In this document: positions 9,914-19,504 of the stretch, piece by piece | Layout: each line of letters opens with the position of its first letter | Position numbering within the stretch: the first letter of the stretch is position 1 | IMG/VR virus record: IMGVR_UViG_3300035663_000059 | Span: 1 to 33,816 of that record | Source: a virus | DNA: 33,816 nt | Direction: 5' to 3' (one strand) | The notes under the pieces: generated by a model | What the model saw: only the letters and a program-made list of their open reading frames with translations | Database searches by the model: none | Told to the model about the DNA's origin: nothing | Translations under genes and position numbers: made by a program

Positions 9914-10627
9914 TCAGGGGCGGGAGAAGCGCATCTGCCCGAGCTTCTGTAGTACAGCCCGCAGCTCGCCCATGCGCGCATCGCCGCCAAGCCGGCGCCA
10001 GGATGCCACGGCAATCTCGTTGGCGCGTCCGACTTCGTGATTGAATCGTCGCGCATCGGCCTTGTTGCCCTGCTGAAGCATCCGTGCCTCAGCAGCGGAG
10101 TTGTCGCCGTAGTCGAACAACGCTCGCTGCAACGCATCACGTGTCGCGCTAGCGGGCAGATCGGCGATGAACTCGTTCACCACGCGCCGCACCTCGCCAA
10201 CATCAAACTTCGCCTTTGCGCCGGGTCGAGCGGCCATGCCCAGCCGGGACGCAATCGCCTTGTACGTGTCGCTTCGCATCGCAGTCTCCTTGTTGAGTTC
10301 CTTGGTCTTCCGTTCAGCCCAGCCCTTGCCCGCATCGCCCCCCCACAGGAGCCACGCGATGTAGCCCGCGTCGTCCTCGCCGCCGGCCTGGTTGCCCTCG
10401 TGGCGGGAGAAGAACGAGTGCATCCGGCGCACGGTGTCGGGGGACAGGTTGGCGCGCCGCGCCAGGTCGCGCGCCCGTGCCACGCCCACGGCCGTGCCGC
10501 CCTTGCCGTGCTGGCGGCGCAGCTCGAGGCCGCGCTTGGCGTTCGCGGCCATCTCGGCGGTGGGCTTGAGGTCAACGTCGGGCACGGGGGCGATGGTACT
10601 TGACGCGGGGCGCGTGGTCGGTATCAT
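9914..10627 (-). CDS. Two-module phage protein with RPGAKAKF joint
   Basis: Module one (about residues 15-115) is a recognisable phage domain of unknown function: MAANAKRGLELRRQ, GKGGTAVGVARARDLA, TVRRMHSFFSRHE, GYIAWLLWGGDAGKGW. Module two begins at MRSDTYKAIASRLGMAA, runs through ARPGAKAKF (10205-10231) and a helical body, and stops at ...MRFSRP. AAGGAG lies 6 bases before the internal ATG at 10279, so module two may also be made alone (121 residues). ATG 10627 has no ribosome site; GTG 10585 and ATG 10552 are alternatives. The RPGAKAK joint also occurs three times in the gene at 18449. The stop falls inside a second partial seam. Confidence 0.7.
   Translation of the reverse strand: MIPTTRPASSTIAPVPDVDLKPTAEMAANAKRGLELRRQHGKGGTAVGVARARDLARRANLSPDTVRRMHSFFSRHEGNQAGGEDDAGYIAWLLWGGDAGKGWAERKTKELNKETAMRSDTYKAIASRLGMAARPGAKAKFDVGEVRRVVNEFIADLPASATRDALQRALFDYGDNSAAEARMLQQGNKADARRFNHEVGRANEIAVASWRRLGGDARMGELRAVLQKLGQMRFSRP
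9917..9928 (-). repeat. Half seam at the 3' end of the minus-strand gene
   Basis: On the minus strand TTCTCCCGCCCC, identical to the start of seam 2 in the 18449 gene with its preceding TTC (18813-18824), then TGA instead of the Gly codon. The protein ends F-S-R-P, exactly where a further RPGAKAK joint would begin. Confidence 0.5.
10205..10231 (-). repeat. Diverged seam encoding ARPGAKAKF
   Basis: Same nine-residue joint as in the 18449 gene (Phe for Met) but with several synonymous changes in the DNA (CGA, GCA codons), so the peptide is conserved more than the bases. Confidence 0.7.
10600..10627 (+). promoter_or_regulatory. Candidate promoter of the replication module
   Basis: TTGACG (10600-10605), 16-base spacer, TATCAT (10622-10627). 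A start near 10634 would place the first arm of the leader structure (10637) almost at the 5' end of the RNA. It lacks the CCCCC run of P1-P3 and overlaps the 5' end of the minus-strand gene. Confidence 0.45.
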
Positions 10628-10636
10628 CACGCACAA

Positions 10637-10712
10637 GAGCGGCTGGCACCGTTCGACAACCAACGACTGAGGGCGGGGCGGGTCAGCTCGCCAGCCGCTC
10701 CCCGCCCCGCCC
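10637..10712 (+). promoter_or_regulatory. Leader with two interleaved perfect inverted repeats
   Basis: Arm A GAGCGGCTGGC (10637-10647) pairs with A' GCCAGCCGCTC (10690-10700). Arm B GGGCGGGGCGGG (10671-10682) pairs with B' CCCGCCCCGCCC (10701-10712). Order A-B-A'-B'; A' and B' abut, which leaves no loop to span stem A, so the stems should be alternatives rather than one pseudoknot. The ATG of the DUF1376 gene follows 24 bases later. Could be a bistable translation or termination switch, or a DNA-level origin element. Confidence 0.55.
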
Positions 10713-10736
10713 CGGTCATCGAACGCAAGGACAGCG

Positions 10737-11282
10737 ATGCACTGGTTCCCGTTCTACACGAAGGATTGGTCGGCGAGCGTGGCGCACATGAGCGCCGCCC
10801 AGCGGGGGATCTACCTGTCCCTGCTGATCTACCAGTGGGACAACGGCACGGTGCCGGATTGCCCGGAGCAATGCTCGCGCATTGCGGGCGCACACCCCAT
10901 GCACGACATGGACTGGGCGGTCGTACGCGCCAAGTTCCACGTCGAGCACGGCCGGCTGGTCAACCACAAGCTCGAGGACGTGCGCCAAGAGCAGCGGACG
11001 AAGCAGGAAGCCGCTTCTGAACGCGGGAAGCGGGCTGCGGCCGCCCGTCACGGGTCCAAGCGCAATGCGGACGCAATGCCCGAGCAGTCCCCAAGCAGGC
11101 GTCAAGTATGCCAGTCAGAGTCAGAGTCAGAGTCAGAGTCAGATACAGAACCAGATACGCCCGTCTTAACCGTACGTCCAACGAGAAGGGCTCCCGTAGG
11201 CGACCCGCCGCCTGACAACCTCGGCGCTCTCCGGGCGCTGGCCGCCGCCGAGCGCAAAGGCGGGCGGGGGTCAAAGCGATGA
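10737..11282 (+). CDS. DUF1376 phage replication protein
   Basis: 181 residues. N-terminal HWFPFYTKDWSASVAHMSAAQRGIY, LLIYQWDNGTVPD and a helical end with LVNHKLEDVRQEQ are the DUF1376 signature, a winged-helix domain at the start of phage replication initiators and helicase-loader partners. The C-terminal half is disordered: basic (KRAAAARHGSKRN), then a Ser-Glu run coded by a hexamer tandem repeat, then Pro-rich. It is shorter than DUF1376 proteins that carry a second domain. AAGGA precedes the ATG by 5 bases. It overlaps the next gene (ATGA). Confidence 0.85.
   Translation: MHWFPFYTKDWSASVAHMSAAQRGIYLSLLIYQWDNGTVPDCPEQCSRIAGAHPMHDMDWAVVRAKFHVEHGRLVNHKLEDVRQEQRTKQEAASERGKRAAAARHGSKRNADAMPEQSPSRRQVCQSESESESESDTEPDTPVLTVRPTRRAPVGDPPPDNLGALRALAAAERKGGRGSKR
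11113..11142 (+). repeat. Five tandem copies of AGTCAG
   Basis: Hexamer microsatellite inside the DUF1376 gene encoding alternating Ser-Glu. Copy-number changes keep the reading frame, altering only the length of an acidic linker. Confidence 0.9.
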
Positions 11283-11731
11283 ATTCCCAAGCCCCGACAT
11301 GGCTCGAGAACCGCGCCTACATGGGCGAGCTCTGGCCGCGCTGGCGCCTCGAGCCCGCCCTCCTGCGCCTCCTCGACGAGCGATGGGGGAGCCTGCACCA
11401 GGACAAGCTCCGCGAGTGCATCAAGCAGCACCGCCTCGAGCGAGACTCGACCCCCGACGTGAGCGCCATCCACGACGCGTACTGCCGCATGACCGGGCAC
11501 GGCCAGGAGGGCCGCGCCGCCGTCAAGCAGACCCAGCGCTACCTCGAGGAGGTGCGCGGCCCGAGCGAGGCCGACACCGCCGCTTGGGACCGCGAGGCCG
11601 ACCAGATCTTCGCCAGCGCCACCTTCGAGGAGATCAAGGCCGCGAAGGAGTCGTTCGGGATCGCACCGGACACGAAGCGCGTCCTGAGCCTGATGATCCA
11701 GATCCGCCGCGAGCAGAAGGGCAGGCGGTAG
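11279..11731 (+). CDS. Replication-module protein, unknown
   Basis: 150 residues, start ATG in an ATGA overlap with the DUF1376 gene, so the two are translationally coupled. Sequence is helical and charged (TWLENRAYMGELWPRWRLEPALLRLLDERWGSLHQDKL; C-terminal APDTKRVLSLMIQIRREQKG). In many phages the gene after the DUF1376 protein supplies a helicase-loader or its partner; no Walker motif is present here, so it is not an ATPase loader. Family not recognised. Confidence 0.7.
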   Translation: MNSQAPTWLENRAYMGELWPRWRLEPALLRLLDERWGSLHQDKLRECIKQHRLERDSTPDVSAIHDAYCRMTGHGQEGRAAVKQTQRYLEEVRGPSEADTAAWDREADQIFASATFEEIKAAKESFGIAPDTKRVLSLMIQIRREQKGRR

Positions 11732-18448: not shown

Positions 18449-19504
18449 ATGGGCGGCATGAGCACCCGGAACGAGATCAAGGCGCGGCTGGGCATCCTCG
18501 CGGAACCGAAGACGGCGATGGCCCGCCCCGGCGCGAAGGCGAAGATGGCTACCTCATACGAGTCCGACAATCAACTGTACGACCGAGTCATGCCGAGCAT
18601 CATTGAGATGAATCAGTTTGTCTCGTTGCGTATTCCTAGTGTCCAAAGCAGTCTGAAGGAAACAGCGACAGCCGCCAAAAGAGCGGCTGCGTTTGGGGAG
18701 AAGATTTTGAAAGAGCGCGCGGCAAGTCCAGAGATGCTTCGTGAGCTTGATCGGTTGGTTTCGGTGGTGAAGGCCCAGTACGGATATCGCATTACGCAGC
18801 GCGGAGCATCGTTCTCCCGCCCCGGCGCGAAGGCGAAGATGGCGTATCGCCATGCTGATGCGTCTATGTGGTCTGATGTCCGTCGATCCTTTGATTCCGA
18901 ACAGGAAGCAGAACAATGGCTTGCGCGTCAGGGATGGAAGCGGAGGCGCGTAAACACCGATGGCGAAATCGAATATGCGAAGAACGGTGCGCTTGCATAT
19001 GTCTACACCGACGAACTTTCAGAACCGCGTATCCGCATGAAGGGCGGAATGACATATTCAAGTCGAAATGCTTCCCGCCCCGGCGCGAAGGCGAAGATGG
19101 ATCTGACGGACGTCCAGCGCAAGGCCGGATACAAGTGGCGCGTGGCCTACACCCGGCAGCTCGGCAAGGATCAGTACCTCGGCGGCCCGCCCGTCACGAT
19201 GCAGGACGACCTGCTCTTCGCAACCGAGAGCGCGGCACGCCAATGGGCCGACACCATGCTCAAGAAGGGCTGGTTCAAGGGACAAGGCGGCGGCCCTGAG
19301 AAGATCCTCAAGGCCACGGTGCTCATGGCCTCCCGCATTGGCGCGAAGTCCACCCACGCTGCCGCCGACAAGCCCGGTCGCAAGGTCATGGCCGAGTCCG
19401 ACCCCGCCGTCAGCGCCAAGATCCGCAAGCTCATGGCCGAGGGCAAGCCCCAGAAGCAGGCCGTCGCAATCGCGCTCGACATGAAGCGCCGAGGAGAAAT
19501 CTGA
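18449..19504 (+). CDS. Seam-bounded multi-cassette protein (RPGAKAKM repeats)
   Basis: 351 residues. Leader (1-24, MGGMSTRNEIKARLGILAEP...), then three modules each opened by (A/S)RPGAKAKM at residues 25, 123 and 209. Module 1 body is helical (LKETATAAKRAAAFGEKILKE). Module 2 contains EAEQWLARQGWKRR. Module 3 contains ESAARQWADTMLKKGWFK, a similar helix-strand motif. A decayed joint SRIGAKS (near 295) precedes the C-terminus SAKIRKLMAEGKPQKQAVAIALDMKRRGE, a tail common in phage proteins. Bodies 1 and 2 are about 52% GC (140/267, 119/231 by hand), module 3 about 66%. AAGGAGG precedes ATG 18449. Between Mu F-like protein and decoration genes, so perhaps an internal head protein; no known function. 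Confidence 0.85.
   Translation: MGGMSTRNEIKARLGILAEPKTAMARPGAKAKMATSYESDNQLYDRVMPSIIEMNQFVSLRIPSVQSSLKETATAAKRAAAFGEKILKERAASPEMLRELDRLVSVVKAQYGYRITQRGASFSRPGAKAKMAYRHADASMWSDVRRSFDSEQEAEQWLARQGWKRRRVNTDGEIEYAKNGALAYVYTDELSEPRIRMKGGMTYSSRNASRPGAKAKMDLTDVQRKAGYKWRVAYTRQLGKDQYLGGPPVTMQDDLLFATESAARQWADTMLKKGWFKGQGGGPEKILKATVLMASRIGAKSTHAAADKPGRKVMAESDPAVSAKIRKLMAEGKPQKQAVAIALDMKRRGEI
18522..18548 (+). repeat. Seam 1, 27-bp exact repeat
   Basis: First of three identical 27-base copies, in frame, encoding RPGAKAKM with flanking bases. It separates the conserved N-terminal leader from low-GC body 1. Confidence 0.95.
18816..18842 (+). repeat. Seam 2, 27-bp exact repeat
   Basis: Second identical copy, 294 bases (98 codons) after seam 1. 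Separates low-GC bodies 1 and 2. Preceded by TTCT, giving FSRPGAKAKM. Confidence 0.95.
19074..19100 (+). repeat. Seam 3, 27-bp exact repeat
   Basis: Third identical copy, 258 bases (86 codons) after seam 2. GC content returns to about 66% immediately after it. Confidence 0.95.
19331..19348 (+). repeat. Decayed seam
   Basis: TCCCGCATTGGCGCGAAG keeps 15 of 18 bases of the seam with its preceding T (CCC to ATT), encoding SRIGAK. It starts exactly 258 bases after the T preceding seam 3, suggesting an older cassette boundary. Confidence 0.5.

Follow-up and report, generated by a model that had tools for sequence, protein, structure and literature searches.

The DNA analysed here (hereafter the window, meaning the whole stretch) is a virus record of 33,816 bases from IMG/VR. 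On its plus strand, two successive genes of a replication operon are preceded by a short leader bearing an interleaved set of inverted repeats, whose components are collected in Table 1. The product of the first gene contains the Pfam domain DUF1376 and also matches the PHROGs family annotated as primosomal protein (E 2.8e-15), in agreement with the replication gene expected downstream, whereas no Pfam or PHROGs family was found for the product of the second gene. The original prediction, made from the letters alone, described two perfect repeats of 11 and 12 bp, interleaved in the order A-B-A'-B' over 76 nt with A' and B' touching, and followed by an ATG (10737) located 24 nt after B'; all these elements were confirmed. 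Interleaved perfect repeats of at least 10 bp occurred in none of 5000 dinucleotide shuffles of positions 10601-10740, and an interleaved pair of at least 11 bp in none of 40 shuffles of the whole window. Moreover, the real window contains no inverted repeats of at least 11 bp with a loop of at most 60 nt other than A/A' and B/B'.

Table 1. Features of the leader and of the genes that follow it; positions are those of the window.
Feature	Position	Strand	Remark
Sigma-70-like promoter, TTGACG-16-TATCAT	10600-10627	+	0.0 expected in shuffles
Arm A, 5' strand of helix P1	10637-10647	+	GAGCGGCTGGC; 11 bp, perfect
H1 alternative hairpin, 5' strand GAGCGG	10637-10642	+	First half of arm A
Loop L1	10648-10670	+	Conserved GCUC(A/G)ACA...ACC stretch (alignment of relatives)
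H1, 3' strand CCGTTC	10649-10654	+	GCTC or GTTC in all aligned relatives
P2b, outward extension of helix B, 5' strand GACTG	10665-10669	+	From the minimum-energy fold
Arm B, 5' strand of helix P2	10671-10682	+	GGGCGGGGCGGG; 12 bp, perfect
Loop L2, TCAGCTC	10683-10689	+	3-8 nt long among relatives, commonly TYAGC
Arm A', 3' strand of P1	10690-10700	+	Perfect 11-bp partner of A
Arm B', 3' strand of P2	10701-10712	+	Perfect partner of B; directly abuts A'
P2b, 3' strand CGGTC	10713-10717	+	Partner of 10665-10669 in the minimum-energy fold
Shine-Dalgarno-like AAGGAC	10726-10731	+	Outside the helices; similarly placed SD-like stretch in relatives
First operon gene, DUF1376 / primosomal-type replication protein	10737-11282	+	Pfam PF07120, E 7.7e-11
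Second operon gene	11279-11731	+	Conserved partner of different first genes (tblastn in relatives)

The extension P2b lies past a mismatch from helix B and has a CCG/CGG or CCTG/CAGG counterpart in relatives. With this extension the helices end at 10717, ahead of the Shine-Dalgarno-like stretch, a layout that is the same in relatives, and no plus-strand terminator-like site was found in positions 10300-11000. The leader had been proposed to act as an attenuator or as a translation switch; since no terminator-like site follows and the Shine-Dalgarno sequence lies outside both stems, neither an attenuator nor a switch masking the Shine-Dalgarno sequence is evident.

Protein and DNA searches of phage contigs retrieved several hundred loci, and about 45 distinct copies of the element are present in IMG/VR phage contigs, at one per near-complete contig. 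The element thus stands ahead of the replication genes in a large group of uncultured phages. Among the first 21 DUF1376 relatives, which were found by protein alone, the A-B-A'-B' arrangement stands just before the gene in every case (21/21). Pattern scans extended the set to 38 distinct aligned copies, to which more distant ones were added later. With a covariance model, 23 of the 28 long contigs each gave one strong match, and none of the contigs contained a second strong copy. To avoid selecting for structure, 80 loci were fetched with the DUF1376 protein profile, and the model matched 77 of these. Among the 80, L389 has its element cut by the contig end, with A'-B' still visible, and L430 and L431 encode DUF1376 and lack the element. 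The shortest L2 loop, only 3 nt (TGC), is found in the group of L437, L440 and L451 and provides a useful limit for three-dimensional models.

The element belongs to no RNA family described in Rfam 15. At the gathering score there was no match in the window and in seven relatives, and an E-value search of positions 10590-10760 returned only sub-threshold, chance-like matches. A self-cleaving ribozyme of the HDV type, whose pseudoknot likewise begins at the 5' end of the RNA, was considered and rejected, given the absence of an Rfam match and the lack of room for the inner helices of that family in a loop of 3-8 nt. Isolated phages and plasmids, searched by DNA and by protein, included no carrier and yielded only distant terminases, so that no host can be named. 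Similarly, a pattern scan of bacterial and archaeal genomes gave 18 matches, none of them with both helices and none significant by the covariance model. A relaxed pattern returned mostly noise among the matches listed, and a CTTGGC-type pattern only three covariance-model matches.

The covariation scores come from 29 distinct sequences, aligned by their arms into a block without gaps. Standard pairs occupy 99.6% of the cells, two-sided changes are seen at 14 of the 19 pairs, and none of 500 shuffles, which ignore kinship, reached any of five covariation measures. In P1 every cell is paired (100%) and 6 of 10 pairs have changed on both sides; in P2 this holds for 8 of the 9 counted pairs. Position 7 of helix A, for instance, is G-C in 16 sequences and C-G in 13, and among dissimilar copies the inner pairs of helix B are found in several states. 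When the partners are slid by 1-3 columns, pairing falls to about 50%. The 16 distinct sequences from protein-found loci give the same picture (99.7% paired, two-sided changes at 13 of 18 pairs). Compensatory change in related phages, put forward earlier as a check of the paired arms, was thus observed, the arms being both conserved and covarying.

The strand that pairs is indicated by the wobble positions of helix B, which comprise 31 G-T against 3 A-C cells, in a scan that allowed one mismatch but preferred G-T; this asymmetry points to the plus strand as the one that must pair, and disfavours the DNA cruciform offered as an alternative in the original prediction. Helix P1 is made of Watson-Crick pairs only, with zero G-U, and taken alone it is therefore indistinguishable from a DNA inverted repeat. 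Taken together, the compensatory changes beyond controls and the plus-strand wobble pairs in helix B identify the element as a conserved structured RNA. Hairpin H1 behaves differently: its 3' side in L1 is a near-invariant (N)NGCTC or CCGTTC, able to pair with the start of A, and its pairing is possible in all copies (95.4% of cells) with zero two-sided changes, which leaves H1 plausible, not proven.

The start of the transcript was placed from the promoter match at about 10634-10636, that is 1-3 bases before arm A. The -10 boxes were assigned as matches to the consensus. On this reading, 21 of the 38 distinct copies have 7-9 nt between the end of the -10 box and A (GAGC), which, together with the promoter of the window, bears out the proposal that RNA starts just before A; the spacing is 24-32 nt in the other copies. 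In these longer leaders, the segment from the start to A folds into a hairpin reaching A (hereafter P0) in nearly all distinct copies; its sequence changes, it usually folds better than shuffles, and the single segment that does not fold is accounted for by a misassigned -10 box. Transcription probably starts with arm A or with a hairpin that immediately precedes it. Provided that the promoter assignments hold, short leaders would start at A and long ones would be filled by a hairpin, so that neither class of transcript seems to carry a free tail at its 5' end.

At the other end of the element, the start of B' and the start codon are 28-36 nt apart, or 57-61 nt apart in copies with an additional hairpin between them. 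The constant spacing could be mere compactness. The inserted hairpin, of 18 nt and of the GTCCGCTACATGGCGGAC type, lies between B' and the start codon in L386, L428, L437 and L444; it is near identical behind several leader types and adds about 25-30 nt to the spacing.

The gene located directly behind the leader varies among relatives, being a DUF1376 gene, an O-like initiator with an HTH_36 domain, or an HNH protein, and the window's second operon gene is found behind all three kinds. Comparison of individual contigs reveals a mosaic. L007 and L004 are identical at 299 of 300 positions of the gene and at 220 of 245 upstream positions, whereas their leaders share only 57 of 100; conversely, the leader of L007 is identical to that of the window at 95 of 100 positions, with a much more different gene and upstream region. 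L092 has the upstream region of L007 and also its leader, except that both A arms bear a compensated change, and an unrelated gene follows. These comparisons indicate that phages exchange the leader as a cassette, whichever gene stands behind it. Autoregulation by the product of the first gene is unlikely. As the leader forms the constant part of a module whose protein part changes freely, it is probably needed whichever initiator is used.

HNH genes of at least two families are located directly behind the leader in L092, L114, L050, L150 and L035. A homing endonuclease gene adjoins the pseudoknot of T4 gene 32 (PMC535899) and, by analogy, HNH endonuclease genes may drive the exchange of leader cassettes. 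The O-like initiator gene contains, at L020:6276-6350 and in its counterparts of L025, L031, L094 and L098, the repeats TGTCCGGA/TCCGGACA, which look like origin iterons.

The stems A/A' and B/B' had been thought to compete. They have no strand in common and A' abuts B' in every copy read; this abutment was favoured by the pattern scans and the later scanner, and the protein-found loci were not selected for it. Because A' and B' adjoin in every case and neither helix uses a strand of the other, P1 and P2 most likely coexist in one molecule as a pseudoknot, as judged from the sequences. The real competitor of P1 would be the short hairpin H1. Of the control element initially envisaged, the RNA leader of a replication operon therefore stands and the competition between the two stems does not; a milder bistability is possible, in which the first 5-6 bases of A would pair either with A' or with the (N)NGCTC of L1.

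Our preferred reading, to which we give about even chances, is that of a conserved pseudoknot forming the 5' leader of a phage replication operon and acting in cis on the replication mRNA. The leader RNA probably controls the making, the keeping or the translation of this message. In the proposed structure, P1 (10-12 bp) and P2 (11-16 bp) would be stacked coaxially along the uninterrupted strand A'B'; with zero bases between A' and B', P2 would sit on the outer end of P1. Judging from the lengths, L2 (3-8 nt) would cross P1 and L1 would run along the whole stack. The 5' end of the transcript would thereby lie at the junction of P1 and P2, and P0 would fill the space before A in relatives with long leaders. 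During transcription, H1 may form at first, then be invaded through its loop by the emerging A' to give P1, after which B' would close P2. The finished structure would end about 12-20 nt before the start codon and leave the ribosome-binding site open. Acting in cis whatever gene follows, it could determine how long the replication mRNA lives and how it is translated, whether by closing off its 5' end to 5'-dependent decay or by offering a phage or host protein a translational operator to bind.

The zero-base junction was also considered as a bar to a pseudoknot, an objection that was dropped, as the placement of P2 on the outer end of P1 with L2 crossing allows it. Against the pseudoknot, nested folding prefers H1 with the extended P2, H1 being part of the minimum-energy fold in all 13 copies folded; the energies of the single helices in the window are -8.3 kcal/mol for H1, -22.3 for P1 and -29.6 for P2. 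Furthermore, helices existing at different times would covary alike, so that covariation does not prove a pseudoknot. The preferred reading is also weakened by L430 and L431, with DUF1376 but no element, and by L014, L043 and L056, whose slot is occupied by another sequence.

Several known systems resemble the proposed leader in part. The translational operator of gene 32 in T4 and RB69 consists of a 5'-leader pseudoknot and, after it, a less structured stretch with the ribosome-binding site (PMC535899); in T4 the pseudoknot spans about 28 nt, over 40 nt containing UUAAA/UAAA repeats come next, and the binding protein is the product of the gene itself (PMC535899). By its layout and covariation, the leader described here would fit such an operator, with a predicted pseudoknot upstream of an open ribosome-binding site and of a phage replication gene. 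Unlike the T4 operator, it measures 76-90 nt, includes two long helices and is followed by varying genes; in the window no UUAAA/UAAA repeat occurs in positions 10713-10736 and the first gene encodes DUF1376, not Ssb. According to literature cited in a review, the 5'-terminal stem-loops of ompA and papA can slow 5'-end-dependent decay (PMC3997798). Like the proposed leader, they are structured right from the 5' end and leave few bases unpaired there, but they are plain hairpins, whereas here two helices are interleaved and loop bases are conserved. By analogy with these systems, a protein-bound operator and a 5'-end seal would be the two uses best matching the position of the leader. As regards architecture, a standard H-type pseudoknot also has two helices in the A-B-A'-B' order; judging from the lengths, the present one would differ by its zero bases between A' and B' and by the 19-27 nt loop joining the far ends.

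Other explanations of the locus were weighed against the cis-acting pseudoknot leader. A truly bistable leader, alternating between H1 with P2 (A' being free) and a fold containing P1, would let a ligand, a protein or the speed of transcription toggle the replication operon. H1 can form in every copy and belongs to the nested fold of all those folded, A' can pair with the loop and 5' strand of H1 as is usual for strand exchange, and bases are conserved in both L1 and L2; we nevertheless consider this switch unlikely, as H1 is devoid of two-sided covariation and, with no terminator-like site and a Shine-Dalgarno sequence outside the helices, no switch output is visible. For a riboswitch, neither a candidate ligand nor an expression platform was seen. 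The nascent leader could instead bind RNA polymerase and permit read-through, as an RNA-only processive antiterminator akin to put of phage HK022, a structured RNA, about 70 nt long, that follows an early phage promoter and needs no particular gene behind it (PMC9378689). Both are structured RNAs near the transcript start that do not depend on the following gene, the leader lying at the very start of its transcript as putL lies just downstream of PL (PMC9378689). Yet HK022 has two put sites of about 70 nt each, made of two tandem stem-loops, unlike the interleaved helices of this predicted pseudoknot, present as one copy per long contig, and no terminator was shown to need suppressing, which makes antiterminator activity improbable in our opinion.

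We see an equally small chance for a trans-acting or antisense RNA, whereby the leader or a processed piece of it would pair with itself or with another RNA for copy control or inter-phage immunity, arm A diversifying for specificity. The many covarying versions of arm A, the exchange of the leader as a cassette and the resemblance of H1 plus A' to a hairpin with its own antisense speak for it, but 10-mers of A or A' are found elsewhere only 5 times, without pattern and not above scatter, in 406,850 bases searched at the same loci, and no processed RNA or terminator is evident. A DNA-level element, be it a cruciform, a replication origin or a protein-binding dyad, would be consistent with the location ahead of replication genes and with the exclusively Watson-Crick pairs of P1; it is nonetheless very improbable in view of the G-T excess in helix B and of the promoter placement, which favour RNA, and of the persistence of the element when the replication gene changes type. 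A broader proposal, which we hold to be rather unlikely, is that of a new class of phage regulatory RNA, in which a 5'-terminal pseudoknot with an arm A exchanging between H1 and A' would serve as a switch, control RNA polymerase as RNA alone, or act in trans as a type-specific RNA for copy control or immunity; it would move from phage to phage on a cassette, whatever replication gene it controls.

The element adds an undescribed and strongly covarying RNA family in phages whose replication switch is otherwise undescribed. In addition, the sequence set constitutes a ready-made collection of natural compensatory mutants for tests of structure and function.

Some further observations were made on these contigs. 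L014, L043 and L056, which are near to the window by terminase, harbour a different sequence in the leader slot. A conserved, G+C-rich stretch of about 400 nt precedes their second operon gene (L056:1330-1900, L043:420-980 and L014:1470-2020) and looks like a large structured RNA; it had no Rfam match in L056 and L014, and no tRNA or tmRNA was detected in L056, L043 and L014. A second stretch resembling a non-coding RNA lies upstream of it. In the window itself, the peptide RPGAKAK(M/F) occurs in the products of two genes, at 9914-10627 on the minus strand and at 18449-19504 on the plus strand, three times in the latter. It splits both proteins into unrelated pieces, and in relatives the two halves of the protein encoded at 9914-10627 have their matches at different places.
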